Below, piece after piece: positions 1-62,367 of a stretch of DNA of 64,000 nt. This stretch comes from a virus: positions 1 through 64,000 of IMG/VR virus record IMGVR_UViG_3300048589_000504; one strand, written 5' to 3'. How positions within the stretch are numbered: the stretch's first letter is position 1; the number at the start of each line of letters is the position of its first letter. The position numbers were made by a program, and so were the translations under genes. The notes below the pieces were generated by a model. The model worked only from the letters and a program-made list of their open reading frames with translations. It searched no databases and was not told the DNA's origin.

Positions 1-177
1 CGGCCGTCCGGGCCGGAGCATCCGTGCGCGCTGTTCAGCGCCGAGCAAGTGCGCGAGATGCGTGAGCTGTACGAAAGTGGCGTGACCATCCGCGAGATCG
101 CCAACCGCATGGACCTCGACGCCGACCTCACCACGATCCACGGCGTTGTATACGGCCGGACGTACCGCAACGTTTAG
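1..177 (+). CDS. 3' end of a helix-turn-helix protein (partial)
   Basis: The frame is open from base 1 to a TAG at 175-177 and gives 58 residues without a start, so the 5' part lies outside the window. The residues FSAEQVREMRELYESG followed by VTIREIANRMDL read as a helix-turn-helix of the kind found at the C-terminus of phage HNH/NUMOD-type proteins and small DNA-binding proteins. The family assignment is inferred from this pattern only. It could be the tail of a homing-type nuclease or a stand-alone regulator. Confidence 0.6.
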   Translation, partial: RPSGPEHPCALFSAEQVREMRELYESGVTIREIANRMDLDADLTTIHGVVYGRTYRNV

Positions 178-906: not shown

Positions 907-1161
907 ATGTTCAGAGCACCTAAGACAAGCAAAAAGAATCACACAATTGCAAACCTGAAGGCGCTGTGCATCGACACAGTGGTCAAGGAGTATCGAGCGA
1001 TTTACAACCGCGAGAGCGACGACGACCGGCTGGCGGTGGACAGTGTAAGCATCACCGCCGATGCCTGCAAGGTACTGTTTGAGTTGGCCGAGTTAACCGG
1101 CCAGATCACACACCTGGATCGGTGGGGGAATGGTCTGGTCATGGTTTGGATTAAGGAGTAG
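907..1161 (+). CDS. small early protein, unknown
   Basis: 84 residues, starting at the ATG at 907 behind GGAGTACGAGC. The 15 bases 895-909 are identical to those at 63817-63831, so the two early genes share a translation leader. The protein is basic at its N-terminus (MFRAPKTSKKNH) and otherwise mixed helical/strand, with no motif I recognise. It is transcribed from the promoter at 815-843 and is followed by a strong terminator at 1174-1207, so it may form a one-gene unit. Confidence 0.75.
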   Translation: MFRAPKTSKKNHTIANLKALCIDTVVKEYRAIYNRESDDDRLAVDSVSITADACKVLFELAELTGQITHLDRWGNGLVMVWIKE

Positions 1162-1173
1162 CAGGGTTTTGAC

Positions 1174-1207
1174 GCGCGCCGGATAGTGACCGGCGCGCTT
1201 TATCTTT
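1174..1207 (+). terminator. intrinsic terminator
   Basis: A perfect 9-bp stem (1174-1182 with 1190-1198, GCGCGCCGG/CCGGCGCGC), a 7-base loop, then TTTATCTTT. It ends the transcript of the gene at 907. Confidence 0.85.
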
Positions 1208-1230
1208 AGCGAGTACGAAGGAGCATACAC

Positions 1231-1380
1231 ATGAAATTCTTGGAACTGTTAGTGAGCTTTACAATCGACAATCCGCTGGCTGTTTTGGGGCTGATCGTGA
1301 TCGGATTTGTGCTGCTCGGTTATGAGCTGCATTGTCGGTTCACCGGTGGCTACGATGACAACACAGGCCGGAGAGAGTGA
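1231..1380 (+). CDS. 49-residue single-pass membrane protein
   Basis: Starts at the ATG at 1231 behind GAAGGAGCATACAC and ends with TGA at 1378-1380. Residues about 14-31 (PLAVLGLIVIGFVLLGYE) form one transmembrane helix, followed by a short polar tail with one Cys. It overlaps the next gene by 26 bases. Function unknown; a small membrane modulator is possible. Confidence 0.65.
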   Translation: MKFLELLVSFTIDNPLAVLGLIVIGFVLLGYELHCRFTGGYDDNTGRRE

Positions 1381-1549
1381 GGTGGCGGCCGCGAAGAAGC
1401 GACCGGGGAATGGGATCGTTTTCAGTGACGGCCGTTGGGTGACTTTGTGCGGCGCAAGCGAGCGCCCACTGAATGGCTACGTAAATAGAGACGGCGCACC
1501 CGTGGAACCGGAGACGCCGCATAAGGAGAATAGCGATGGCGATGAATAA
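1355..1549 (+). CDS. small hypothetical protein
   Basis: 64 residues from the ATG at 1355 (MTTQAGESEVAAAKKR). The core GNGIVFSDGRWVTLCGASE carries a DGR tripeptide encoded by an ACGGCCGT octamer. The gene overlaps both neighbours (26 bases upstream, 14 bases downstream), consistent with translational coupling into the ATPase. No family recognised. Confidence 0.55.
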   Translation: MTTQAGESEVAAAKKRPGNGIVFSDGRWVTLCGASERPLNGYVNRDGAPVEPETPHKENSDGDE

Positions 1550-2834
1550 TATGTTTCGTAAAGCGGTGAAGGAAGAGGCCAAGCTGCTGATGGCGGTTTC
1601 CGGTCCATCCGGCGCGGGCAAGACGTACACCGCGCTGCGGTTCGCGACCGAACTGGCCGGGCTGGGCGGCCGCATTGCCGTGGTGGACACAGAGCACGGA
1701 TCGGCCAGCAAGTACGCCGACCTGTTCAGTTTCGACACGCTGCACATGGAGCCGCCTTATCATCCGGCGCGGTTCGCTGAGGCCGCGCGCGCGGCAAAGG
1801 CTGCCGGGTACGATGTGCTGGTCATTGACAGTCTGTCACATGCGTGGGCCGGTTCCGGCGGCGCGCTGGAAATGGTGGATGAAGAGGCCAAGAAGATTAA
1901 GGGCAACTCGTATATGGCTTGGGGTGCGGTGACGCCGGTGCATCGCAACATGGTTGACACAATCGTGTCAGTTGGCGGGCCTGACGGGATGCACGTCATT
2001 GTGACCATGCGCAGCAAAACAGAGTACGTGCTGGAACAGGACGCGCGCGGCAAGACAGTGCCGCGCAAGGTCGGCATGGCTCCCATCCAGCGCGACGGGA
2101 CCGAGTACGAATTCGACGTGTGGATCGAGATGACCATCGACAACGATGGCATTGTCCAGAAGACGCGCTGCCCTGAATTGACCGGCCGCGTGTTCTCGAA
2201 GCCCGGCGCAGAAGTCACCGACATCCTGAAAGAGTGGCTCAAAGGCGCTGCGCCGCTCACGCAGGAAGAGTACGAAGCGGCGATGCTTGACGCGACCGAC
2301 GCCGGAACGTGGGCCTACAATGCCCACCGCCTGAACGTGGTCAACAGCGTATTTGCCGCGCCGCAGAATCTGATCGACTTTCGCGGCTATCTCGGCGCTG
2401 AGGTGTACGGCCGTGGCGACAATGAGCGGGTCTGGTCTGTGCTGCGCAGCTACAGCAATGCCATTCTGGACGGTAGTGACAAGCGCGACGCGGCGGCCGC
2501 TGCGCGTATGGCGTGGGCGGCGGATGATCCGACGGTGAAAGCGAAGCCGCAGCCGCAGGCGAATGGGCAGGTGAAGGCGGAAGCGCAGTCAAAGGCAAAG
2601 GCGGGACCGGTGGAGGACGAACCGAAGCCTGCCGCTGCCTCCACCGCCGCGGCTGTTCCTGCCACGCCCACGACCCCCGCGCGGATCGGCAAGGACCCCG
2701 CCGAACTGCTGAAAGCGACCGGAACCGAGATCGACGCCGACATGCTGAGCGGCGGTGATGACGGGGAAGGTGAAGACGACGATCTTGATTACGCTTTTGC
2801 GAGCGAAGACGATTTCGCAGAGGCCGGAAACTAG
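1536..2834 (+). CDS. Sak4/RecA-like AAA ATPase (AAA_24), recombination
   Basis: 432 residues. Walker A is GPSGAGKTYTA (about residues 21-31), followed by a Walker B-like VLVIDSLSHAW (about residues 89-99) and a sensor-like VIVTMRSKTEYV. This arrangement is that of phage AAA_24 / Sak4 proteins, RecA-core ATPases that support single-strand annealing recombination and replication. After about residue 300 the sequence becomes Ala/Pro/Lys-rich and ends in an acidic tail (GGDDGEGEDDDLDYAF), similar to the acidic tips of SSB-interacting proteins. The nuclease at 3200 is a plausible partner. The ATPase assignment is firm; the Sak4 sub-family is inferred. Confidence 0.85.
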   Translation: MAMNNMFRKAVKEEAKLLMAVSGPSGAGKTYTALRFATELAGLGGRIAVVDTEHGSASKYADLFSFDTLHMEPPYHPARFAEAARAAKAAGYDVLVIDSLSHAWAGSGGALEMVDEEAKKIKGNSYMAWGAVTPVHRNMVDTIVSVGGPDGMHVIVTMRSKTEYVLEQDARGKTVPRKVGMAPIQRDGTEYEFDVWIEMTIDNDGIVQKTRCPELTGRVFSKPGAEVTDILKEWLKGAAPLTQEEYEAAMLDATDAGTWAYNAHRLNVVNSVFAAPQNLIDFRGYLGAEVYGRGDNERVWSVLRSYSNAILDGSDKRDAAAAARMAWAADDPTVKAKPQPQANGQVKAEAQSKAKAGPVEDEPKPAAASTAAAVPATPTTPARIGKDPAELLKATGTEIDADMLSGGDDGEGEDDDLDYAFASEDDFAEAGN

Positions 2835-2835
2835 C

Positions 2836-3210
2836 ATGGCCGGGCAACGAGATAACGTGTCTCGCGCTGCCAAAGTGGCAGCGCCGCTCTTGGTCTTTGA
2901 CGAAAGACCGGTTGCGGAGCGGCGCTATCTTATCCGAACGGTGCTGCCATATGACGCAGAGCAGGAAGGGAAGCTGGTCACGATGACGCGAGTAGGGCAC
3001 ACAGTTTGCGGGTTCGTTGATGCCGACGGTGTGAGTCACGAGCGGGAATTTGTGATCTGGAACGATGATCCAAGCTGGATAATCTACCTGCTTAGCATTT
3101 TCTTCGTGACCTTCATGTCAGCGGGCGCGGTTACGGCCGTGCTGTTGACCGGATTCATCGCCGTCGCGTTGGTGGTACTGCGCATCGGAGTGGCGCGTCG
3201 TGGCCGGTAG
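2836..3210 (+). CDS. membrane-anchored small protein, unknown
   Basis: 124 residues from the ATG at 2836, one base after the stop of the ATPase gene. The N-terminal two thirds are soluble and beta-rich (RRYLIRTVLPYDAEQEGKL). Residues about 76-117 are strongly hydrophobic (IIYLLSIFFVTFMSAGAV then LLTGFIAVALVVL), giving two transmembrane helices. It overlaps the nuclease gene by 11 bases. No family recognised. Confidence 0.65.
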   Translation: MAGQRDNVSRAAKVAAPLLVFDERPVAERRYLIRTVLPYDAEQEGKLVTMTRVGHTVCGFVDADGVSHEREFVIWNDDPSWIIYLLSIFFVTFMSAGAVTAVLLTGFIAVALVVLRIGVARRGR

Positions 3211-3664
3211 CAGCAGCAAGCGCATCGGCGCGCGTAACCAGCGCGTCGGCAAGGCCGGAGAGCAGGTCGCCGAGATTATGCTGCGACAGGCGGGCGTGTG
3301 CATGGTCGAGCAGATCGCCACGCCCTACGTAATCTACGCCTCGCGCGGCACTGGCCGCAATCGCTGGGTGCAGATGCGCCACACTGTGAAGGTGAGTGGT
3401 GACCGGCGCGGGATCATGCCGGACGGCCGTCGTGTGCTTTGTGAAGTCAAGGTACGCAGCGGCAATCTGCGCAAGTCGGATTTCGAGGCGCATCAACTCG
3501 CGGCGCTGGAAGAGAACTCGCAACTGAACGGCGTGAGCCTGGTCGCGTGGATTCACCCGGACGAAAGCCTGCTGCTGCGCTGGCCGCTGCCCGGCTTCGA
3601 GAAGGCGCGGGCCAGCATCACGCTGGAAGCAGCGCGCGGACTGCGTTGGGACGGCCGTACATGA
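3200..3664 (+). CDS. PD-(D/E)xK nuclease, Holliday-junction-resolvase-like
   Basis: 154 residues from a GTG at 3200 that overlaps the upstream gene. The catalytic signature is visible as GIMPDGRRVLCEVKVRSG (D, then E-x-K, around residues 72-89), with an N-terminal KAGEQVAEIMLRQAG helix and a Gln in HQLAALEE. This is the layout of RecU/VRR-type phage resolvases that cut branched DNA before packaging. Placement two genes after a recombination ATPase supports the role. Exact sub-family is uncertain. Confidence 0.75.
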   Translation: MAGSSSKRIGARNQRVGKAGEQVAEIMLRQAGVCMVEQIATPYVIYASRGTGRNRWVQMRHTVKVSGDRRGIMPDGRRVLCEVKVRSGNLRKSDFEAHQLAALEENSQLNGVSLVAWIHPDESLLLRWPLPGFEKARASITLEAARGLRWDGRT

Positions 3665-3726
3665 CTGCGCCTGCTAAAGTTTCATATCGTTTTATAGATG
3701 TTTGTGAAGTTTGGAGGTGATTGGTG

Positions 3727-4191
3727 ATGATTGAAAAGAATGAACCATTGGCGAGAGTGGATCGGGCGTTGCGGCGGGCGCAGTTGCAGTCGCTCGGCGC
3801 TGGGCCGGAAGCGGGAACGCAGCAGCAACCGGAACCGGTCGATTTGGAGATGTGGATCGCCCTGAACCGCGTCAAGGGCGGGGCGCTGATTTACAACGTA
3901 GCCAATGACTGGTACATGGCTACGGCGTCGCTGAGCAAGATGGTCCCGAAACTGGTCGGCGCATTGGCCGCCGCCGGTTACATCACGCAGTCCGGTCCAG
4001 GTGTGTACCGGATGAGCGCGAAGGGGCTGCAAGCGTGGGAGGCGTTCCCAACGACAAGCGTGCGCGGCGCCAATGTCGAGGGTATGTGCGACATCTGTCA
4101 CGAGGTCACGGATCTGCACGCGGTCTATGAACGGGCAACCGAACGTTACATGTTTCTGTGCGCCGACTGTCACGAATGGGAGCGGATGTGA
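3727..4191 (+). CDS. winged-helix protein with C-terminal zinc ribbon
   Basis: 154 residues. The ATG at 3727 is chosen because an exceptionally strong Shine-Dalgarno GGAGGTGAT sits at 3713-3721. Residues about 50-105 (LIYNVANDWYMATASLSKM then LVGALAAAGYITQSGPGVY) look like a winged helix-turn-helix. The C-terminus holds two CxxC/CxxCH knuckles (CDICHEV and FLCADCHEW), probably binding zinc. DNA binding is inferred; the target is unknown. Confidence 0.65.
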   Translation: MIEKNEPLARVDRALRRAQLQSLGAGPEAGTQQQPEPVDLEMWIALNRVKGGALIYNVANDWYMATASLSKMVPKLVGALAAAGYITQSGPGVYRMSAKGLQAWEAFPTTSVRGANVEGMCDICHEVTDLHAVYERATERYMFLCADCHEWERM

Positions 4192-10564: not shown

Positions 10565-11278
10565 ATGGGTAGTCGCAACTACGCCGAACTAATCCAGCAA
10601 GAGCTGGACGCGCTGGATCACCTCAATTCCAGACGCTCGATGCGCGACAAGACGTTGCTCGCCGTCGCCGCTGCGGTTGTGGACGGCCGTTCGATCAACT
10701 CCGTGCTCGGCACAGGCGGTGCGGTGCGAGAATCCACCTACTACAGCAAGAAAAAGGACTGGCACAACAACAGGGACTTTAAGCGCGCGCTGAACAACAT
10801 TATCGCGCTGTACCGCCAACGCGACACTGAGATGCGTGAAGCGGCGGAAGCGGAAGCGCGAGAGAAGCGGCATCGGGAGCGGGCGCGCCTGATCGATGAG
10901 GGCAAGGCGATCTTGACCTCCCTCATCGCCGAACAGCTTCACCAAGCGGAGCTAATCAAGCTCAGAGCGCAAGACGCGCTGGAGAACGGGGAAGTGCCGC
11001 AGTCGGTCGGCTTGGAAGCCAGGCTCGACGAATTGACCCGCTTCATGAAAGTCATCTTTTCCGAAGAGCGTACCGAGTTCGACGAGACACCGGCCAGCAA
11101 GATACAAGCCGAATTTGATTGGCGCGCCAATTTGCCGGATGGGGTCACGCCGTCGGACGCGGACGAGGCTCTGAATCAGTTTGCGGAGATCATTGTCAGG
11201 CAGCAGCTACAAAACGTACTAGACGGCCGTCTCGGAGCCGACGACGAGAGCTTCACAGACGCGGACGGTGCCGACTGA
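10565..11278 (+). CDS. terS: probable terminase small subunit
   Basis: 237 residues. The assignment rests on position (stop overlaps the start of the large terminase) and architecture: an N-terminal helical DNA-binding region (MRDKTLLAVAAAVVDGRS, with TYYSKKKDWHNNRDFKRAL) and a long charged coiled coil from about residue 85 (REAAEAEAREKRHRERAR). Small terminases recognise the packaging site and regulate the large subunit. The sequence itself is not diagnostic, so the call is moderate. Confidence 0.6.
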   Translation: MGSRNYAELIQQELDALDHLNSRRSMRDKTLLAVAAAVVDGRSINSVLGTGGAVRESTYYSKKKDWHNNRDFKRALNNIIALYRQRDTEMREAAEAEAREKRHRERARLIDEGKAILTSLIAEQLHQAELIKLRAQDALENGEVPQSVGLEARLDELTRFMKVIFSEERTEFDETPASKIQAEFDWRANLPDGVTPSDADEALNQFAEIIVRQQLQNVLDGRLGADDESFTDADGAD

Positions 11279-13011
11279 TGGACGCCGCCTACGCGCCGCT
11301 CATTCGCCAACTATGGGGCGACAACGCCCCGCCTGCGCTGCAAGAGGCGATCACCGGCGAACTGCAAGCGCGGGTTGCCCTGCTCATGCAAGAGGAAGCG
11401 CGGTCGCACGAACTGCTGCGGGATTGGCGCAAGTGGGTCACGTCGATGTTCCCGACCTACGCTTCCAAGCCTTTTGCTGATCATCACGTCGATTTCTGGC
11501 GCTGGGTGTGGGATATAGAAGAGGGTGTCCGGCCACGGCCGTTCGTGGCTATCTGGCCACGTGGCGGGGGAAAGTCTAGTTCGGCTGAAATGGCCTGTGT
11601 CGCTATCGGCGCACGCAAGGTACGCAAGTACGTCTGGTACATCGGCACGACCCAGGATCAGGCGGATAAGCACGTCGAGAACATCGCCGACATGCTGGAA
11701 AGCAGCGAGATAGCCGCCAATCACCGGCTGCTGTCGCAGCGGGAGATCGGCAAGTATGGCAACTCACGCGGCTGGCGCCGCAGCCGCCTGCGCACGGCCA
11801 GCGGTTTCACTGTTGACGCTATCGGCCTCGACACTGCGCGGCGTGGTTCGCGTGTGAAGGACGCGCGGCCGGACGTACAAATTTACGACGACATCGACGA
11901 GAAGCACGACACAGCCAAGACCATCGAGAAGAAGATACAGATCATCACCACGTCGCTGCTGCCGGCCGGTTCCAACGATCTGGCGGTCATGATGGTACAG
12001 AACCTGATCCACCCGGACAGCATTTTCGCGCAGCTCGCCGACGGCCGGGCCGGATTCCTGTACGACCGCGAAGTGTCCGGCCCACATCCGGCCGTGCGCG
12101 GCCTGACCTATGAAGAGCGCCCCGGCGGCGGATACGTCGTGACCGGCGGCGTGCCGACGTGGGAAGGGCAGGGGCTTGCCACGGTACAGGAGCAGATCAA
12201 CGAGTGGGGCATCTCCGCATTCGAGGCCGAAGCGCAGCACGAAGTCGCCGCGCCGCTCGGCGGCATCTGGGATCACGTCATCTTCCGGCACGTCACGCAC
12301 GACAAAGTACCGGGCATCGTGACCGGCTGCGTCTGGGTCGATCCGGCCGTGACGGAGACAGACAACAGCGACAGTCACGCCATTCAGGCCGACGGCATCG
12401 CCGCCGACGGTACGATCTACCGCTTCTTCTCGTGGGAGCAGGTCACGTCGCCGGAAGAAAGCATTTGGCGGGCGGTATTGAAGGCGGTCGAACTTGGTTT
12501 TGTGACCGTCGGCATTGAGACGGATCAGGGCGGCGACGCATGGCGGTCGGTGTATCGCTACGCCACGAACAGCATGCGCGAGATTTCGACGGCGCTTGTG
12601 GCATTGGAGCAGGGCGGGCTGGAACAGGACGCGGGTAAAGACGACAAGTATCAGCAGTTGCGCGCCCTGTCACCGGAAGACGCGGCGCGGCACACGGCCG
12701 TGCTTGCCGCGCATGACGAGACGAAGGTCGGGCAGGTACGGCCGTATGCGGCCGGTATCGTTTACGGCAATATCATGCTGCCGCGCTTCAAGTCAGCAAA
12801 GGCCGGGGCAGGGCATGGCAGCAAAGTGGAGCGCAACGCGCGCATGCTGACAGATTACGAGCGTGGGCGCGTGGTGCATGTGACCGGCACACACGAGGCG
12901 TTGGAAAAGGCATTGAAGCGTTTCCCGAAGGCGAAACCGTTCGACCTGGTGGACGCGGCATATTGGGGTTGGGCTGACCTTCGCGGCGTGTCGAAGGGCG
13001 TATATATCTAG
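11278..13011 (+). CDS. terL: terminase large subunit
   Basis: 577 residues from the ATG at 11278, overlapping the previous TGA. The ATPase domain shows Walker A WPRGGGKSS (residues 93-101) and Walker B VQIYDDIDE (about 199-207). The C-terminal RNase H-like nuclease shows GCVWVDPAVTETDNSDSHA (about 350-368) and IETDQGGDAW with the conserved acidic residues. The enzyme pumps DNA into the prohead and cuts it. Length and motif order are typical; no intein is present here. Confidence 0.95.
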   Translation: MDAAYAPLIRQLWGDNAPPALQEAITGELQARVALLMQEEARSHELLRDWRKWVTSMFPTYASKPFADHHVDFWRWVWDIEEGVRPRPFVAIWPRGGGKSSSAEMACVAIGARKVRKYVWYIGTTQDQADKHVENIADMLESSEIAANHRLLSQREIGKYGNSRGWRRSRLRTASGFTVDAIGLDTARRGSRVKDARPDVQIYDDIDEKHDTAKTIEKKIQIITTSLLPAGSNDLAVMMVQNLIHPDSIFAQLADGRAGFLYDREVSGPHPAVRGLTYEERPGGGYVVTGGVPTWEGQGLATVQEQINEWGISAFEAEAQHEVAAPLGGIWDHVIFRHVTHDKVPGIVTGCVWVDPAVTETDNSDSHAIQADGIAADGTIYRFFSWEQVTSPEESIWRAVLKAVELGFVTVGIETDQGGDAWRSVYRYATNSMREISTALVALEQGGLEQDAGKDDKYQQLRALSPEDAARHTAVLAAHDETKVGQVRPYAAGIVYGNIMLPRFKSAKAGAGHGSKVERNARMLTDYERGRVVHVTGTHEALEKALKRFPKAKPFDLVDAAYWGWADLRGVSKGVYI

Positions 13012-13026
13012 GGGCAGGGGAAGATT

Positions 13027-15063
13027 ATGGCAGTTAGACGATGGTGGCGCGGGTTTGGAGAAGGGAGCAACAAGGCACGCTCCGGTCCGCCGACAGAACA
13101 GAAGATGTCATTGAGTATCACGTCAACCGGCGTGCAGAAAGTGGCGAATTTGCCGGATACCGGCGCGGGCGCGTTGGTGGCCGCGTACCGGCACAACCAG
13201 CTCGTGCGCGCCTGCGTGGACATTCTCGCTAACAGTGCGACCGATCCGCGCCTGATCGTGCAGGCCCGCGACAAGGACGGCGACTGGAACGAGGTTATGG
13301 GCCACCCGTTCCGGCGGCTGCTCATGCGCCCGAACAGCTACATGGATGAAGCGATGTTTATCTCCTTCGCAGAGATGAGCATCGAGGTCATGGGCGTGTT
13401 CTACTGCGAGATTGTGCGCTCACGCGGCAAAGTGCCGGTGGAGCTGCATCCGCTGCAACCGCAGCTCGTAACGCCGCAGTATCGCACGCTGCGCAATGGC
13501 GAGAAGGAGCTGACGCACTATCTGTACAAGGATGGTCTGTACGAGCAGAAGTTTGCGCTGGAAGAAATGCTTGTGCGCGATGACAAAATGCTTGGCGGCC
13601 GATTGTCGCCGTTAGCATCTGCTATGCGCGCCATCGACAGTGACAACGCGCAAACCGACTACGTGCGTGCCTTCTTCGGCAACGCCGGTGTGCCGTCCGG
13701 TTTGTTGAAAATCCACAACCGCACGATTGACCAGGACGAGAGCCGCCGCCTGCAAGACCAGTGGGACGCGCGGTACAGTCTCGCGGGCGGCGGGGCGAAT
13801 GGCACGGCCGTGCTCGACGAGAACGCGGATTACCAGAAGATCGGCGCGAATCTGAACGAACTGGACAGCCAGACGCTGCGCGGCTTCGACGAGAGCCGGA
13901 TCACAATGGCCTTCGGGGTCCCGCCCCTGATCGTTTACGCCTATTTCGGCCTCATGCGCGCGACGTACAGCAATCTGAAGGAGGCTTGGTCGCAGTTCTG
14001 GCAGACGACGATGAGCAGCAAGCTAAAGGGCTGGCGCAGCTTTTTCACAGTCAATCTGTTGCCTGCGTTTGAAGACCAGAACGCGATCCTTAATGAGCAG
14101 ACGCGCCTGTTTTGGGACATCTCGCAAGTCGGAGCGCTGCAAGAGAACGTGGACGCCGCCAATGATCGCGCGCGCAACAACTTCACCGCCGGTGGCATGA
14201 CCTTGAACGAGTTCCGCGCGGCGGTCGGGTTGCGCGACTTCCCGGAACCCGACCTGGGCGACATGATCTACTTCCAACTGCGCGCCGCATCCGGTCTTTC
14301 CGGCATGTCGCCTCTGGCTGCTCTATCCGACGCGCAGACAGAAGCGGACGTTGCCAAGATTCTGAGCGAAGGCTTTGCGCGGCTGGAATTGGCACAGGGG
14401 GGAGCGCGGGAGGGCGGTAGTACGGCCGTCCAAACTACTCCGTCCGCTTCCAAGTGGCAGCTCGTTCGGCCGCAAGACGCGAAGATGCGGCAGGCGGAAC
14501 AGCAGCGGCTTAAGCAGTATGGCGATGAGTTGTACGCATTAGCGGACAAGGCGCGGCAAGGGCAGATCGACAAGGAGCAGTTTGTCATCGACCTGAAGGC
14601 CCTGAGCCGCGACAGTCTCGTCGCTGCCTACGTGCTCGGTATGCTGCTCGGTGACGACGAGTTAACCGACGAGGAATTCGCGTCGGTGTACACGCACATT
14701 CAAAAGGCCGAAGAGAGCGCTGCCAATCTCGGTGAGGACATCTATGCCGGTCGTTATGGCGGGGTGCATCGGGACGAGGAAGACGAGGGCCAACCGGCCA
14801 GCCTGACGGCGCGCACGGCGCTCTGGGTCGGCGCGGCGGCGGCGGTGATCGTGCTCGGCCGGACGTGGCGACGGGATGACCCGGAACTGATGTGGAGGCG
14901 CGGCGCTACCGAAGAGCCGTGCAACGACTGTCTCGCCTTTGAGGGCACGACGATGAAGGCCAGCGTCTGGCGGGCGACGTGGGATGCTGAACGCCTGCCG
15001 CGCGGGCATGGGCTGGAATGCGGCGGCTGGAACTGCGAGTGCGATCTGTATGTGGTGGCGTAG
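13027..15063 (+). CDS. HK97-family portal protein with MuF-like C-terminal extension
   Basis: 678 residues, longer than the usual 400-500 of HK97 portals. Residues 1-about 430 are the portal (LVRACVDILANSATDPRL; RGFDESRITMAFGVPPLIV; NLKEAWSQFWQTTMSSKLKG), forming the ring through which DNA enters. After a linker rich in Ser/Gly, residues about 460-678 are helical, include a hydrophobic stretch (ALWVGAAAAVIVLG), and end in a Cys-containing block CNDCLAF...HGLECGGWNCECDL, like the zinc-type tail of MuF minor head proteins. I infer a portal-MuF fusion. Confidence 0.85.
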   Translation: MAVRRWWRGFGEGSNKARSGPPTEQKMSLSITSTGVQKVANLPDTGAGALVAAYRHNQLVRACVDILANSATDPRLIVQARDKDGDWNEVMGHPFRRLLMRPNSYMDEAMFISFAEMSIEVMGVFYCEIVRSRGKVPVELHPLQPQLVTPQYRTLRNGEKELTHYLYKDGLYEQKFALEEMLVRDDKMLGGRLSPLASAMRAIDSDNAQTDYVRAFFGNAGVPSGLLKIHNRTIDQDESRRLQDQWDARYSLAGGGANGTAVLDENADYQKIGANLNELDSQTLRGFDESRITMAFGVPPLIVYAYFGLMRATYSNLKEAWSQFWQTTMSSKLKGWRSFFTVNLLPAFEDQNAILNEQTRLFWDISQVGALQENVDAANDRARNNFTAGGMTLNEFRAAVGLRDFPEPDLGDMIYFQLRAASGLSGMSPLAALSDAQTEADVAKILSEGFARLELAQGGAREGGSTAVQTTPSASKWQLVRPQDAKMRQAEQQRLKQYGDELYALADKARQGQIDKEQFVIDLKALSRDSLVAAYVLGMLLGDDELTDEEFASVYTHIQKAEESAANLGEDIYAGRYGGVHRDEEDEGQPASLTARTALWVGAAAAVIVLGRTWRRDDPELMWRRGATEEPCNDCLAFEGTTMKASVWRATWDAERLPRGHGLECGGWNCECDLYVVA

Positions 15064-49863: not shown

Positions 49864-50430
49864 ATGGTGAAAATGGTTGGCTCTCCAATAATGTACAGAC
49901 GGAAGCAGATAGAATCAATTATATATGTCGCCAATCGGGCAAAAAACCCGACTGTCCTCAAGGTCTTCAATCTGCTGTACCTTGCAGACCTAGAGCATCT
50001 AAGCCGCTACGGCCGTTTCATAACCTATGACCGGTATGTCGCCATGGAAAACGGCCCCGTCCCTGCGAAAATGTATGACCTGACCAAGGAATCTGGTGCC
50101 GCCGACAGTATCGAAGGCTTTGTTGTGCCGCCAAAACCATCTGGTGAGCGCGGGCGTGAGATTGTGACGCAGAGGGATGCAGACCTGGACGAATTCAGTC
50201 AATCAGACCTGCAATGCCTGGACGAAATCATAGCAAACTACGGCACATATTCAATTTCCGATCTCGTGCATAGATGTCACGATGCGGCATGGAACAAGAC
50301 CACCGGCGACGGGGCAATGTTTGCTGACCAATCTTCCAGCAAGTCCAAACCTATTGATCTCGCTGACATCGTCGATATGTTGTCGAACGCAGACGAAGTG
50401 AGGCTGCACTTGCAGTCACATGTCTGTTGA
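49864..50430 (+). CDS. Panacea / SocA-like (DUF4065) protein
   Basis: 188 residues. VFNLLYLADLEHLSRYGRFI, YVAMENGPVPAKMYDL and IANYGTYSISDLVHRCHDAA are the hallmarks of the Panacea domain, known as the antitoxin half of many toxin-antitoxin pairs and in SocA, a proteolytic adaptor. No obvious toxin gene lies beside it. It is the only + strand gene in the leftward block, is AT-richer than its neighbours and splits a duplicated gene pair, all signs of recent insertion. It overlaps the 3' end of the leftward gene at 50416. Confidence 0.85.
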   Translation: MVKMVGSPIMYRRKQIESIIYVANRAKNPTVLKVFNLLYLADLEHLSRYGRFITYDRYVAMENGPVPAKMYDLTKESGAADSIEGFVVPPKPSGERGREIVTQRDADLDEFSQSDLQCLDEIIANYGTYSISDLVHRCHDAAWNKTTGDGAMFADQSSSKSKPIDLADIVDMLSNADEVRLHLQSHVC

Positions 50431-51212: not shown

Positions 51213-52208
51213 CTAAAGTATAACGCCATTCTCAAAGGCTGAATCGACACTGTATTCAGGCAGGAAGTAAGCATAGCTTTCGCGCGTCGTCTCTGCACTG
51301 ACATGGTTAAGAATTTCCTGAACCGCTTCCAGCCCAACGCCATTCTGCAACATCGTAGCGGCGCGGTAATGCCGGATGTGATGTGGCGTGACACGGCCGT
51401 CCAGGCCAAGCGTCCGCATGGGCCGCTTGATTGCATTGTAAATTGAGGTAACGCTCAGGCGCTTGCCGTCGCTGTTGCGCGAGTGAGAGACAAACAGTGC
51501 CTCATTCGTGTCGGTTCGTTCGCTCAGGTACGCTCCCAGCGCGGGCACGGCGCGGCTGCTCCCATTGCGCAGCAAGCGCAGAACGTGCGGCCGGTTGCCC
51601 TTGCCTTTCACGCTCACAAGACGGCCGTCTTTCAATGCGGCGAAATCGGAGCGCGTCAATCTGCCCACTTCGGCCGTGCGTGCGGCCGTTTCGTACAGTG
51701 TCCAAAACAGCGCAGTATCTCGCAGCGCAGTCAGGCGACGGCCAAACGAGTCGTCTTCGGTTGGCGGTTCTAATACTTCAAAGTAGGCTCTGAGCTTCGG
51801 GATGCCATCCATCCATAACTCGTGATACAGTACGCGGTCGCGCCATGTGCGATCTGGCGGAAGTGGCGCTTCCTTACGGATTCTGTTATCAAGCGCGTCA
51901 AAATTGATGATTGGTGCGCCGCCTACTTCACCGACGACAAAGTGCAGGTAACGAGAAACTACCGTCCAGTAGGTATTGATCGTTTTGCCCTTTGAGTATT
52001 CATCGCTCAGATGCAAGCGAAACGCGAAGGCGGTTTCGCCACTTAACGGGCGCTTACCGGCCTCGGAACAAAATTTCTCGAACTTGCGGAGTGCGGATTT
52101 GTAGGTTAAAAACGTCTTTCCCTTGTCAATGTACTGATCAAGAAACTCGCCAGAGTACGGAAGACTCGCCCCGCCCTGCTGTTGTGATGTAGAATGGTTG
52201 CTATTCAT
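51213..52208 (-). CDS. int: tyrosine recombinase / integrase
   Basis: 331 residues from the ATG at 52208, chosen for GGAGGTG six bases upstream. N-terminal SAM-like core-binding domain (YIDKGKTFLTYKSALRKFEK). Catalytic residues: Arg in YETAARTAEVGRLTRSD, Lys in VSVKGKGNRPH, HxxR in TPHHIRHYRAATMLQNG, His in ILNHVSAETTRESYAYF and a C-terminal Tyr in the same block. It integrates the phage at a host att site. This makes the element temperate. Confidence 0.95.
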   Translation of the reverse strand: MNSNHSTSQQQGGASLPYSGEFLDQYIDKGKTFLTYKSALRKFEKFCSEAGKRPLSGETAFAFRLHLSDEYSKGKTINTYWTVVSRYLHFVVGEVGGAPIINFDALDNRIRKEAPLPPDRTWRDRVLYHELWMDGIPKLRAYFEVLEPPTEDDSFGRRLTALRDTALFWTLYETAARTAEVGRLTRSDFAALKDGRLVSVKGKGNRPHVLRLLRNGSSRAVPALGAYLSERTDTNEALFVSHSRNSDGKRLSVTSIYNAIKRPMRTLGLDGRVTPHHIRHYRAATMLQNGVGLEAVQEILNHVSAETTRESYAYFLPEYSVDSAFENGVIL

Positions 52209-52289
52209 GGTTGCACCTCCGTTGTGCACTGTGGGTCACGCTCAGGGATGGTGAGACATCGCCTGAGCACTTCGTTAATACACCCATAA

Positions 52290-58325: not shown

Positions 58326-58353
58326 ATTTTATCATGTATACATGAAATGTCAA
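58326..58353 (-). promoter_or_regulatory. leftward early promoter with palindromic operator
   Basis: On the minus strand TTGACA (58353-58348), 16-bp spacer, TAAAAT (58331-58326). The spacer contains the 14-bp palindrome TCATGTATACATGA (58332-58345). The 32 bases 58332-58363 match 63775-63744 in the opposite orientation at 31 positions. Confidence 0.8.
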
Positions 58354-58383: not shown

Positions 58384-58412
58384 TTTACACGTCAATAACC
58401 ACGTGATATACT
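58384..58412 (+). promoter_or_regulatory. rightward promoter for a leaderless mRNA
   Basis: TTTACA (58384-58389), 17-bp spacer, TGATATACT with -10 at 58407-58412. An inverted repeat ATAACC(58395-58400)/GGTTAT(58416-58421) flanks the -10 and reaches into the start codon. The ATG at 58420 falls at the expected transcript start and has no Shine-Dalgarno. Confidence 0.7.
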
Positions 58413-58419
58413 GCCGGTT

Positions 58420-58809
58420 ATGAAGTGGATTGCCGCGTTCCTTATCACTTTCGCCCTTGCCTTCATTTTTGGCGCTCTCTCTGTCGTTGCCGACAACCCC
58501 CTGCTCGACGCAGCCGCGTCGGCTATTGCCCCCACGCCGCCCGATCCATACCAGCAATTACTCGACGCTCGCGCCGCAGAAGGCAGCAGCGTGCCGCTGT
58601 TCGTGGCCGCCGCGCTCATGGGCGTGGTGCTGGTCGGTATCGGCTGGTACGCGCTTTCGGAGCGCACGACCAAGACGCTGCGCGCCTTCAACACCGCGCG
58701 ACGACCGGTGCGCACACGCCGCGTTCAGCCGCTGCAACAGGACCAGTACCAGCCCGCGCAGTTTCAACCGATCCAACCCATCGCTCTTCCTGAAGTATCG
58801 GAGGTCTAG
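58420..58809 (+). CDS. two-helix membrane protein
   Basis: 129 residues. An N-terminal signal-anchor (KWIAAFLITFALAFIFGALS), a short outside loop (PPDPYQQLLDARAAEGSSVP), a second transmembrane helix (LFVAAALMGVVLVGIGWYAL) and a basic, Gln/Pro-rich cytoplasmic tail (QDQYQPAQFQPIQPIALPEV). Four bases from the ATPase gene, so probably its membrane partner. Function unknown. Confidence 0.65.
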   Translation: MKWIAAFLITFALAFIFGALSVVADNPLLDAAASAIAPTPPDPYQQLLDARAAEGSSVPLFVAAALMGVVLVGIGWYALSERTTKTLRAFNTARRPVRTRRVQPLQQDQYQPAQFQPIQPIALPEVSEV

Positions 58810-58812
58810 CCG

Positions 58813-60462
58813 ATGAAACAATTCGCCACGCTTGCCGCGTTCTTCGCCCTGCTGCTCCTTGCCGGATGCGCGCCCGCGCCGACCGGCAGCAGCCAGGCCG
58901 CCTACGTCGCCCTACCCGCGCAGGACGCCGCCGACGCGCGGGCCACGATTGCCGCGGCCGACATCGCGATTCAGGCGACGCGAGAAGTCGGCGCGCAGCA
59001 GACGGCCGTCGCGGTCGATGCGACGCGGGCATGGATCGCCGCCGCAACCGCTGAGGCGCAGGCGGCGACGCGGCAGGCGCAGGCCACGACGCAGGCACTG
59101 CAAGGCCAGCAGACAGTTGTCGCCTTACAGATGGCGGTAGACGAAGCCACGCGCGTCGCGCAGGCCGAGCAGACGGCCGTCGCGGTCACAATTGCCGCTG
59201 AGCAGGCGCGCGAAGAGCTGCGCGCCGGAAACACGCTCATGCTGCGTCAGGCCGAAGAAGAGCGGATGCAGTCCGGCATCTTTTGGCGTAACGTGTTCAA
59301 TGGCCTGCTGGCGACGTTGCTGTTTGCCGGTGTTCTCTCGCTGCTCATGATCGCCGGGTCGGTTGTGGCCCGCGTTCGTTCGCTGAACGATAATCCAGTC
59401 CGGCAGTACAACGACAGCGACGCGCAGATTAACATCCTCGTCGTGCCAAATGGCTTGTTCGGCACCGACGTGCGGCAGATCGGACGGCCGTCTACAGTCG
59501 TGCCGCAGCTCCCCCCGCCCTCGATCCCGCAACTACCCGCGCCGCTGCGCGAACTGCCGGAAATCCAGATCGGCCATGTGTTGGTTGCCGGACAAAGCGG
59601 ATCGGGCAAGAGCAGTGTCATGCGAGCGATCATCCGCCACCGCCAAAACGTGGTTGTGCTCGATCCACACGCGGCGCCAGGTGAATGGAACGCCGCTCGC
59701 GTCATCGGCATGGAAGGCAACTTCGACGAGATCGCCGACTTCTTCGGCTGGATGGACGCCGAACTGGATCGGCGCATGGGCCTGCGCGGGCGCGGTGAGC
59801 AATTGGATTTTGATCCGATGACTGTCGCTACTGACGAAATGCCTGCTATTGTGGATCGGCTTGGGCGCGACGTGGCAAACTCGGCGTGGGTTTCGTGGGT
59901 GCGACAAGGGCGCAAGTACGGGCTGTTCGTCATGATCTCCACGCAATCGACGCGAGTGAAGTCGTTGGGGATCCCCGGCGAGGGCGACCTGGTCAAGCAA
60001 TTTGAAGCGGTGATCAGCCTCGGCACTGAGGCGACCGACAACTATCGCACCCTGCTCAATACCGCGCCTCCCGGCAAGGCCGTGCTTCAACTGGCCGGGC
60101 AAGCCCCGCGCGTGATCCGCGTGCCGAACGTGCCCGCCTTTGCCGGGGCATCCGGCTCCCCTGCCGGGGCCAGCTTTGCGGCCGGCAGATCGCAAAATGG
60201 CGGGAATGGCTACGCAGGCAGCGCCGCGTCTGATCTGTTCCGGCCTCGTGCGGACGCGCCGGTCGTGGTGGAGCAAGGCGGTGGGATTGACACGCCGCAT
60301 GGATTCGTGACCGCTGCTGAGGTCGATGAGATTTTGCACTACGGCCGTAATATGTCTTCGCTGCGCGGCGTGGCGTACAATGTATACGGCTCCACCGGCG
60401 GCGCGGGATTTTACAAGACGCGGGCGGTGCTAGACCGGCATGGCGTTGCGCCGGGCGCGTAG
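58813..60462 (+). CDS. lipoprotein-anchored FtsK/HerA-like ATPase
   Basis: 549 residues. A lipoprotein signal peptide ends in LAGC with Cys19. Residues 30-150 form an Ala/Gln/Thr coiled coil with repeats of QQTAVAVDATR / EQTAVAVTIAAEQAREE. One transmembrane helix spans about 157-187 (FNGLLATLLFAGVLSLLMIA), then a Pro-rich linker. Residues about 253-450 are a P-loop ATPase: Walker A GQSGSGKSS (260-268), Walker B-like TVATDEMPAIV (about 336) and an arginine/Gln segment GLFVMISTQSTRVK. This predicts an outside lipid anchor with an inside DNA-pumping domain. A role in DNA transfer, segregation or entry is inferred. Confidence 0.8.
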   Translation: MKQFATLAAFFALLLLAGCAPAPTGSSQAAYVALPAQDAADARATIAAADIAIQATREVGAQQTAVAVDATRAWIAAATAEAQAATRQAQATTQALQGQQTVVALQMAVDEATRVAQAEQTAVAVTIAAEQAREELRAGNTLMLRQAEEERMQSGIFWRNVFNGLLATLLFAGVLSLLMIAGSVVARVRSLNDNPVRQYNDSDAQINILVVPNGLFGTDVRQIGRPSTVVPQLPPPSIPQLPAPLRELPEIQIGHVLVAGQSGSGKSSVMRAIIRHRQNVVVLDPHAAPGEWNAARVIGMEGNFDEIADFFGWMDAELDRRMGLRGRGEQLDFDPMTVATDEMPAIVDRLGRDVANSAWVSWVRQGRKYGLFVMISTQSTRVKSLGIPGEGDLVKQFEAVISLGTEATDNYRTLLNTAPPGKAVLQLAGQAPRVIRVPNVPAFAGASGSPAGASFAAGRSQNGGNGYAGSAASDLFRPRADAPVVVEQGGGIDTPHGFVTAAEVDEILHYGRNMSSLRGVAYNVYGSTGGAGFYKTRAVLDRHGVAPGA

Positions 60463-60490: not shown

Positions 60491-60703
60491 ATGCAAACTG
60501 ACATGGCGGCCGCCAACGAAGCCATGCTAGAGATTGCCGTCAACGCGGCTGCGGCCGGGCATGACCTCAGCGGCTTCGAGCCTGTAGAGGATGCGGACGG
60601 CCGTGCGAACGGCTGGCAAGCACGGTGCAGGATTTGCGGCATGACCGCGTGGGTTGGTCTGAACGGAGTGCAATACAGCCTGTTAGAGGATGTTTGCGAA
60701 TGA
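60491..60703 (+). CDS. small hypothetical zinc-knuckle protein
   Basis: 70 residues from the ATG at 60491. Helical N-terminus (NEAMLEIAVNAAAAGHDLSG) and a CRICGMTAWVG block with a CxxC. Its stop overlaps the methyltransferase start (ATGA), suggesting co-expression. Function unknown. Confidence 0.55.
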   Translation: MQTDMAAANEAMLEIAVNAAAAGHDLSGFEPVEDADGRANGWQARCRICGMTAWVGLNGVQYSLLEDVCE

Positions 60704-62367
60704 CAAAGCCGATCACCCGCAACACGCTCTTCTACGGCGACAATCTAGGCGTTCTGCGCAACTATGTGCCAGATGAGAGCGTTGATCTTGTCTATCTCGA
60801 TCCGCCGTTCAATTCCAAGCGCACTTATAACGTCCTGTTCAAGCAAGAAAGCGGGGAAGAATCCGAAGCGCAGATCGCCGCGTTTGATGACACTTGGCAC
60901 TGGGATCAATCCACGGCCGCGCAGTATCACGAATTGATCACCGAAGCGCCCGATCATATCAGCCGCATGATCGGGGCCATGCGGGAATTCATCGGCACGA
61001 ATCAGATGATGGCCTATCTGGTCATGATGGCCGCCCGCCTGATCGAACTGCACCGCGTCCTCAAACCCACCGGCAGCCTCTACCTGCACTGCGACCCGAC
61101 GGCCAGTCACTACCTAAAAGTTGTCCTGGATACAATTTTTGAGCCGCAAAACTTCACAAATGAAATTATCTGGAAGCGCACAAACACGCACAATGATGCA
61201 ACGACAAAGTTCCCAGATGTAGCAGATATTATCTTGCTATATTCAAAATCAAGAAAGAGCTTGTTTATTCCACAGCATTCAGAACATGATCCGAAATACA
61301 TTAAGAATTTTTATCGTCATGATGATAATGACGGACGGGGTCCATACACCTTAGATAATATGGCAAGTCCTAATCCACGCCCTAACATGATGTATGATTG
61401 GAAGGGCTATCCATACCCAACAATGGGCTGGCGTTACCAGGAAGAAACGATGGCCAAATTGGATCAGGAAGGGCGAATTTATTATCCCAAAAACAAAGAC
61501 GGTTCTTTTGACACCACCAAAAGGCTAAGGTTAAAGCGCTATCTACATGAGCAGCCGGGTCCAGTTATCGGGAACGTTTGGACAGATATATCCCCTGTAT
61601 CTGCTCATGCCACAGAGCGTTTAGGATACCCTACGCAGAAACCTATAGAACTTCTGGAACGCATCATCTCCGCCAGCAGCAACCCCGGCGACGTCGTCCT
61701 CGACCCGTTCTGCGGCTGCGGCACGACCATCGCCGCCGCCCAAAAGCTGGAGCGCCGCTGGATCGGCATCGACATCACCCACCTCTCGATCACGCTCATG
61801 AAATATCGCCTGCAAGAGATGTTCCCCGACGCCGAATTCGCCATCATCGGCGAGCCGGCCGACCTGGACGGCGCGCGCCGCCTGGCCGCGCAAGACCGCC
61901 ACCAGTTTGAATGGTGGGCGCTGTCGCTGGTCAAGGCACGGCCGTCCGGCGGCGCAGCGGGCAGCAAGCGCGGCAAAAAAGGCGCGGACCAGGGCATCGA
62001 CGGCGTGATCACCTTCATCGACGACGCCGGCGGCGCGCCCAAACGGATCATCGTGCAGGTCAAAAGCGGCCACGTCAAAAGCGGCGACATCCGCGACCTG
62101 GCCGGCACCATCGAGCGCGAGAAGGCCGCTATGGGGATATACATCACGCTTGAAGAGCCAACGAAGCCAATGATTACTGAAGCGGCTTCGGCCGGGTACT
62201 ATCACTCGCCGGGCTGGAATCAAGACTATCCGCGAATTCAGATTCTAACGATCCGGGAGCTGCTCAACGGCGCGGCTGTAAAGATGCCGCCCGCAGGAAT
62301 GACCTTCAAGCAAGCGGAGCGAGTGAAGGAATCGGGGGCAGTCCAGAAAGGTTTGTTCGATGGCTGA
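60700..62367 (+). CDS. DNA methyltransferase fused to an Mrr-like endonuclease domain
   Basis: 555 residues from the ATG at 60700. Beta-class methyltransferase order: catalytic LVYLDPPFNSKR near residue 28-39 and the SAM motif VLDPFCGCGTTIAAA near 331-345. Residues about 145-310 (NEIIWKRTNTHNDATTKFPD) are the target-recognition region and are markedly AT-rich (61130-61640) without ACGGCCGT. Residues about 400-555 contain DQGIDGVITF and RIIVQVKSG, the D and Q/ExK of an Mrr/PD-(D/E)xK nuclease. This reads as a single-chain restriction-modification enzyme. Specificity is unknown. Confidence 0.85.
   Translation: MTKPITRNTLFYGDNLGVLRNYVPDESVDLVYLDPPFNSKRTYNVLFKQESGEESEAQIAAFDDTWHWDQSTAAQYHELITEAPDHISRMIGAMREFIGTNQMMAYLVMMAARLIELHRVLKPTGSLYLHCDPTASHYLKVVLDTIFEPQNFTNEIIWKRTNTHNDATTKFPDVADIILLYSKSRKSLFIPQHSEHDPKYIKNFYRHDDNDGRGPYTLDNMASPNPRPNMMYDWKGYPYPTMGWRYQEETMAKLDQEGRIYYPKNKDGSFDTTKRLRLKRYLHEQPGPVIGNVWTDISPVSAHATERLGYPTQKPIELLERIISASSNPGDVVLDPFCGCGTTIAAAQKLERRWIGIDITHLSITLMKYRLQEMFPDAEFAIIGEPADLDGARRLAAQDRHQFEWWALSLVKARPSGGAAGSKRGKKGADQGIDGVITFIDDAGGAPKRIIVQVKSGHVKSGDIRDLAGTIEREKAAMGIYITLEEPTKPMITEAASAGYYHSPGWNQDYPRIQILTIRELLNGAAVKMPPAGMTFKQAERVKESGAVQKGLFDG

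Follow-up and report, generated by a model that had tools for sequence, protein, structure and literature searches.

A predicted lipoprotein-anchored FtsK/HerA-type ATPase and its membrane partner in a candidate phage-plasmid, with relatives on plasmids and prophages

The operon and its ATPase

The stretch of DNA analysed here, termed the window, comprises bases 1-64000 of the 70,608-base IMG/VR record IMGVR_UViG_3300048589_000504, and contains a two-gene operon that encodes a small membrane protein and an ATPase (Table 1). Both reading frames are open and lie 3 nt apart, a GGAGG motif is found upstream of the second, and the operon diverges from a leftward cluster of small genes. The region holds two promoter-like sites (versus 0.6 expected), one for each direction. 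That of the operon has its last base at 58412 and the partner ATG lies at 58420, such that the predicted transcript starts at or next to the ATG and would be of the leaderless type, in agreement with a preliminary description of this DNA made from its letters alone. The membrane partner has hydrophobic helices near residues 4-22 and 57-75, as expected for the two-helix protein of that description, and had no match in Pfam or PADLOC, its best E values being 0.099 in NCBIfam and 0.48 in PHROGs. The methyltransferase gene at 60625-62367, which is probably in the same transcription unit as the ATPase, encodes in a single chain both the methyltransferase and a C-terminal Mrr-like/NACHT-associated inactive nuclease domain; a P22-type antirepressor gene is also found downstream of the operon.

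Table 1. Features of the operon and of the surrounding phage genome (window positions)
Feature	Position	Strand	Basis or details
Terminase large subunit (phrog_38, E 6.6e-39) and portal (phrog_12)	11119..15063	+	tailed phage with its own packaging motor
Phage tyrosine integrase	51213..52229	-	PF00589, phrog_1; context of a temperate phage
Divergent promoter-like site, leftward small-gene cluster	58326..58353	-	TTGACA-16-TAAAAT, 11/12
Promoter-like site, membrane-protein/ATPase operon	58384..58412	+	TTTACA-17-TATACT, extended TG, 10/12
129-aa membrane partner	58420..58809	+	two hydrophobic helices, basic Gln/Pro-rich tail
549-aa predicted lipoprotein-anchored FtsK/HerA-type ATPase	58813..60462	+	motifs, hydropathy, predicted structure
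Predicted type II signal peptide, lipobox LAGC, residues 1-19	58813..58869	+	sequence
Predicted external Ala/Gln/Thr-rich helical segment, about residues 20-162	58870..59298	+	composition, predicted helix
Transmembrane helix region, about residues 163-187	59299..59373	+	hydropathy peak at residue 168
P-loop ATPase domain, about residues 240-440	59530..60132	+	motifs and predicted fold
C-terminal three-helix domain with conserved family motif, possible HTH, about residues 496-549	60298..60459	+	predicted structure, alignment
N4/N6 DNA methyltransferase with Mrr-like C-terminal domain	60625..62367	+	PF01555 E 5.6e-46, PF04471 E 4e-10

The ATPase chain is built as previously described, with a lipobox, an Ala/Gln/Thr-rich helix, one transmembrane helix (around residues 168-186) and a P-loop ATPase in one ORF. 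Its N-terminal hydrophobic helix spans residues 4-22, with LAGC at residues 16-19 (Cys19), and by sequence the protein would be a bacterial lipoprotein, given a type II signal peptide with lipobox. In related loci, a strict lipobox is present in 5 of 71 ORFs with a hydrophobic N-terminus, all five of which resemble real lipoproteins, and the ATPase is the sole ORF of this type with a strict lipobox in the record of the window phage. The 141-residue segment after the lipobox consists of 30% Ala, 13% Gln and 10% Thr and is predicted to be helical: the coiled coil proposed earlier corresponds to a long predicted helix, whose placement outside the cell would follow from the lipobox. Because the positive-inside charge at the transmembrane helix is weak, the N-out topology rests on this same lipobox.

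The ATPase domain displays a Walker A motif (260-267), an acidic Walker B motif ending in D341-E342, a conserved R367-K368 and Q378; across the family, G260, G265-K266-S267, E342 and R367 are conserved, as is, largely, Q378. No Pfam or NCBIfam model reached its cut-off on this protein, which gave only sub-threshold or P-loop-limited matches (for Pfam FtsK_SpoIIIE, PF01580, 19.2 bits against a gathering cut-off of 24) and weak matches in PHROGs. An AlphaFold2 model had high confidence in the ATPase, with block means of about 83-94 for residues 261-380, and low confidence in most other parts of the chain. When the ATPase domain was compared to the PDB, TcpA of pCW3 (6o1x) ranked at the top (Z 13.2, 3.2 A over 166 residues, 21% identity), with the EssC/EccC ATPase domains (Z 12.4-12.6) and the FtsK motor (Z 12.4) tied within one Z unit of it, and HerA (Z 10.3) following. 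The likeness to FtsK and HerA that had been noted from the letters is therefore upheld by structure prediction, and the motifs and the modelled RecA-like fold mark the protein as a predicted member of the FtsK/HerA superfamily. The top BFVD match was A0A345MZL5 (E 5e-13), and matches to TPR proteins were discarded since they look like artefacts of designed consensus repeats. The C-terminal domain alone, a low-confidence three-helix model, had no significant match in the PDB and none to the gamma winged helix; Pfam HTH models match it weakly, and in some relatives only.

This ranking leads to a rival reading, a motor for the export of proteins or peptides of the EccC/EssC kind, whose ATPase domains score almost at the level of TcpA. 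However, EccC and EssC are multi-ATPase chains in type VII loci, whereas the window protein has a single ATPase domain followed by three C-terminal helices, a domain with HTH character in some relatives, and the scanned ORFs included no type VII gene; we consider export very improbable.

The window phage

The two ends of the record, window 1-151 and record 70458-70608, share a 151-bp overlap in which 1 position is mismatched, and their join is spanned by a second contig, IMGVR_UViG_3300048839_001047. The phage genome is thus circular or circularly permuted, with a length of about 70.46 kb, and the record is essentially closed. In addition to the phage genes in Table 1, the phage encodes a head protease, a major head protein (phrog_10), a tape measure protein and a GH25 endolysin, and the record beyond the window encodes a ParA-like partition protein (phrog_164), a small ORF that is ribbon-helix-helix-like by eye, and a replication-initiator-like DnaA_N protein that matches a phage replication-initiation family. 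The ParA gene is not adjacent to the ATPase gene but ~5 kb downstream of it. Virion genes, plasmid-type partition and replication genes and a closing genome occur together, which fits a phage-plasmid; an integrase is present as well, hence the plasmid prophage state is a candidate one.

Two PHROG matches, of the ATPase to phrog_2666 ('terminase large subunit', E 5e-7) and of the lipoprotein part to phrog_456 ('Rz-like spanin', E 0.02), would agree with a component of virion packaging or lysis, i.e., a terminase-like motor or a lipoprotein spanin fused to an ATPase. But the window phage has its own TerL beside the portal, on which ground the ATPase was rejected as terminase, its endolysin gene is far from the operon, and relatives of the ATPase reside on small plasmids without annotated virion genes, all of which makes a virion or lysis role hardly credible. 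The ATPase gene itself is accessory, since a distant 67-kb phage that shares TerL with the window phage (45% identity), and little else, is without such an ATPase.

A link to a Chloroflexota host is suggested by the distribution of the ATPase family and by low-complexity stretches, Thr-Pro-rich and Ala-Thr-Gln-rich stretches being typical of Chloroflexota; one such stretch was found in an insert of a sister contig. Two further host indicators were set aside: the portal, which has only 24-30% similarity to Chloroflexota portals and does not fix the host, and the DnaA_N protein, most of whose matches fall in the N-terminal domain of larger DnaA-like ORFs. The insert (positions 1100-3754 of sister contig L118) amounts to ~2.65 kb extra relative to the window, at window position ~63096, and encodes a membrane protein with Thr-Pro repeats, an ORF that looks HNH-like by eye and a short ORF similar to the C-terminal motif of the ATPase; the two versions diverge at the 3' end of the antirepressor gene. 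Elsewhere in the window, positions 49864-50430 encode a SocA/Panacea-domain antitoxin-like protein.

Relatives of the ATPase and their neighbourhoods

With tblastn, small plasmids of cyanobacteria were found to encode the ATPase domain, among them pDU1 (6.4 kb), and a pattern scan of an 84,980-species genome collection with a domain alignment recovered cyanobacterial contigs together with one Herpetosiphonaceae (Chloroflexota) contig. A pattern scan of viral contigs with the whole ATPase protein as query returned no relative, and tblastn against phages gave no match for either the window ATPase or the Herpetosiphonaceae homologue. The 84,980-species scan also yielded two contigs binned as Patescibacteria (L024 and L026), which are probably misbinned: their ATPase sequences group with the cyanobacterial ones, and they carry plasmid genes grouping with cyanobacterial plasmids. 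A profile search placed the family in 22 of the 400 Chloroflexota genomes at E values up to 1e-10, where the weakest matches are FtsK-like, and in 13 of the 292 Cyanobacteria genomes at E values up to 1e-15.

The ATPase core is common to all members and the C-terminal motif LEAGxSxSxIIKxxLGxxG (consensus) to many, and many have one or two transmembrane segments before the ATPase. Of the 49 sequences examined, which represent 24 lineages at 60% identity, the window one is alone in having a lipobox in signal-peptide position together with a long, predicted external helix; in the family tree it is a lone long branch of uncertain placement. The family is unnamed in the libraries searched, and its carriers are plasmids, integrated elements and prophages of Chloroflexota and Cyanobacteria, as opposed to the ordinary chromosomal paralogues that the preliminary description had raised as the contrary case. 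Every plasmid matched by the pDU1 ATPase (13/13) was typed as non-mobilizable. The pDU1 ATPase is probably accessory to plasmid replication, given that a 1,747-bp fragment of pDU1 is sufficient for replication (PMC13416735) and is shorter than the ATPase gene and the other large gene together. The named cyanobacterial carriers (including L004-L007) are all of filamentous genera, a raw pattern that is uncorrected for sampling; many plasmids in the same collection come from unicellular cyanobacterial genera.

The next upstream gene, counted if on the same strand and within 250 bp, encodes a transmembrane protein in 14 of 19 non-redundant loci as against 41 of 288 other small genes (14%; Fisher p=4e-8), counts that are approximate because gene calls in related loci are longest-ORF calls. 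The pairing with a membrane protein, proposed earlier for the window alone, is thus recurrent. Six of the Chloroflexota partners are homologous to one another, and no homology was found between these six and the 129-aa partner in the window.

In four Chloroflexota loci (L074, L076, L082 and L084), an actin-like gene (PF21522, PF17989, phrog_691 'partition protein') is situated 2-4 genes upstream of the ATPase, and at least three of the four are prophages with phage structural genes (G283, G112 and G104). When scanned, the G283 prophage contained TerL (phrog_2), portal (phrog_64), head (phrog_267) and integrase genes; G112 is of the same type, with near-identical openings of those genes, and G104 is of another type (TerL phrog_979, portal phrog_2662). 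Contigs carrying the G112 and G104 versions of the ATPase are listed as viral in IMG/VR. Elsewhere in Chloroflexota, loci without the actin-like gene carry genes for a primase, a serine or tyrosine recombinase and HTH proteins, and primase-type replication genes and integrases recur near family ATPases.

These neighbourhoods bear on the superinfection barrier that the preliminary description had entertained, i.e., a defence or exclusion device that would act at the membrane against DNA entering the cell, possibly together with the methyltransferase-Mrr protein. The window ATPase matches PADLOC mad8 (E 2.4e-6), its relatives do so more strongly (2.4e-11, 2e-8 and 7e-9), weak HerA matches are found in PADLOC as well, and the next gene encodes a DNA methyltransferase with an Mrr-like domain. 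However, the mad8 matches are limited to the P-loop or to a portion of the ATPase domain, which proteins of one superfamily would be expected to share; among the proteins scanned no further MADS gene turned up, and the methyltransferase neighbour, which matched general methyltransferase models, is not conserved beside the ATPase in relatives. As the recurrent neighbours are replication and partition genes rather than defence genes, and the barrier comes down to weak similarity to MADS protein 8, we regard a defensive role as improbable; nothing points to host takeover, which had also been suggested.

Proposed role and comparison with known systems

One membrane-bound motor with a small partner recurs on diverse elements that have an extrachromosomal phase, which suggests that the motor works at the membrane on the DNA of the element that carries it. 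We tentatively favour a role in positioning or segregating the episomal DNA of the element, for which the protein would serve as a dsDNA motor anchored in the membrane. The ATPase, of the FtsK/HerA superfamily, would probably form a hexameric ring that translocates dsDNA; the lipid anchor, external helix, single transmembrane helix and co-transcribed partner would keep this ring on the cytosolic side of the cell membrane, and the C-terminal three-helix domain may contact DNA. Acting on the extrachromosomal circle of the element, the motor would place it at the membrane or division site and move it so that both daughter cells inherit it. Segregation is favoured because partition genes accompany the motor in phages and because the plasmid carriers are uniformly non-mobilizable; against this, the ParA gene of the window phage lies apart from the ATPase gene, ParA or ParM could suffice for partition, and the actin-like gene occurs in four loci only. 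Actin-like transport of phage DNA has a precedent in AlpC/AlpA of prophage CGP3 (PMC4446434).

The main rival is a motor for transfer between cells, a minimal dsDNA translocase made of one protein, of the type of Streptomyces TraB, TcpA or Thermus TdtA, which would pump the element across a septum or into a neighbour with the partner as a Spd-like protein. We judge transfer to be unlikely but take it seriously as an alternative, since the non-phage loci have the architecture of actinomycete single-motor conjugative elements and TdtA provides a precedent outside actinomycetes. The nearest fold is that of a coupling protein, TcpA, and the non-phage Chloroflexota loci combine an integrase or recombinase, a primase or Prim-Pol, a small membrane protein and the motor, a set that resembles actinomycete integrative conjugative elements (PMC3218068), in which the motor serves transfer. 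DNA donation is driven by TdtA, a hexameric, membrane-associated motor of an ICE that has a PF01555 methylase beside it (PMC5365140), and a PF01555 methylase is likewise next after the window motor; moreover, the crossing of septa could matter in filamentous hosts, the host pattern being read with its sampling uncorrected. On the other side, at least three phage lineages carry the motor, though phages spread by virions without need of conjugation, and a Pfam scan of the larger window ORFs revealed no relaxase or T4SS gene, although TraB-type transfer needs none. Of the maintenance or transfer proposed in the preliminary description, both thus gain from the ParA, replication-initiator-like and integrase genes, and we place maintenance before transfer. 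It is a long shot that a temperate phage drives its own circular genome through or along the filament septum via a lipid-anchored motor, which would allow spread or inheritance without virions.

FtsK-type genes in phages are already known and are not new (PMC8597652). In the literature searched, we did not find a description of a family linking plasmids and prophages, of the recurrent membrane partner, or of the lipoprotein-anchored form. The family is found on plasmids, on integrated elements and in prophages, across two phyla with many filamentous members, and since one member lies on pDU1, a plasmid used in cyanobacterial shuttle vectors, the role of the family is directly testable. If the motor does segregate or transfer DNA, phages and plasmids would be exchanging a common module for handling DNA at the membrane, and its lipoprotein-anchored form would be a new way of mounting such a motor.

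Among characterized systems, TcpA of pCW3 is, like the window ATPase, a membrane-anchored single FtsK-type ATPase of a mobile element, but it belongs to a conjugation locus, of which none was found among the larger window ORFs scanned, and it is without the lipobox and long external helix. The FtsK/SpoIIIE motor shares the ATPase core, the membrane anchor and the DNA-motor motifs; the window ATPase is much shorter, and its three-helix C-terminal domain is unmatched to the gamma winged helix. The Chloroflexus-associated temperate virus vO23 has an 'FtsK/SpoIIIE accessory gene', mentioned and left uncharacterised in that report, which is likened to the window ATPase by its published label only (PMC8597652). 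TdtA of Thermus ICEth1, an FtsK/HerA-superfamily membrane motor of a mobile element with a PF01555 methylase next to it, is similarly likened by description only, and differs in having a NurA nuclease partner (PMC5365140). Streptomyces TraB/Tra and the actinomycete elements have one membrane-bound motor with adjacent small membrane proteins, as does the window locus, where a transmembrane helix lies N-terminal to the ATPase and a small membrane (Spd-like) gene is adjacent, and integrase and primase genes near the motor are common to them and to loci of the ATPase family (PMC3218068); however, TraB/Tra gave no above-cut-off sequence match to the window ATPase, and several carriers of the window family are phages. 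The pDU1 'ATP-binding protein' (WP_011666303) and its cyanobacterial plasmid relatives belong to the same family, with about 31-34% identity over the domain and a related C-terminal motif: unlike the window ATPase, they have a short N-terminal region with neither lipobox nor external helix.
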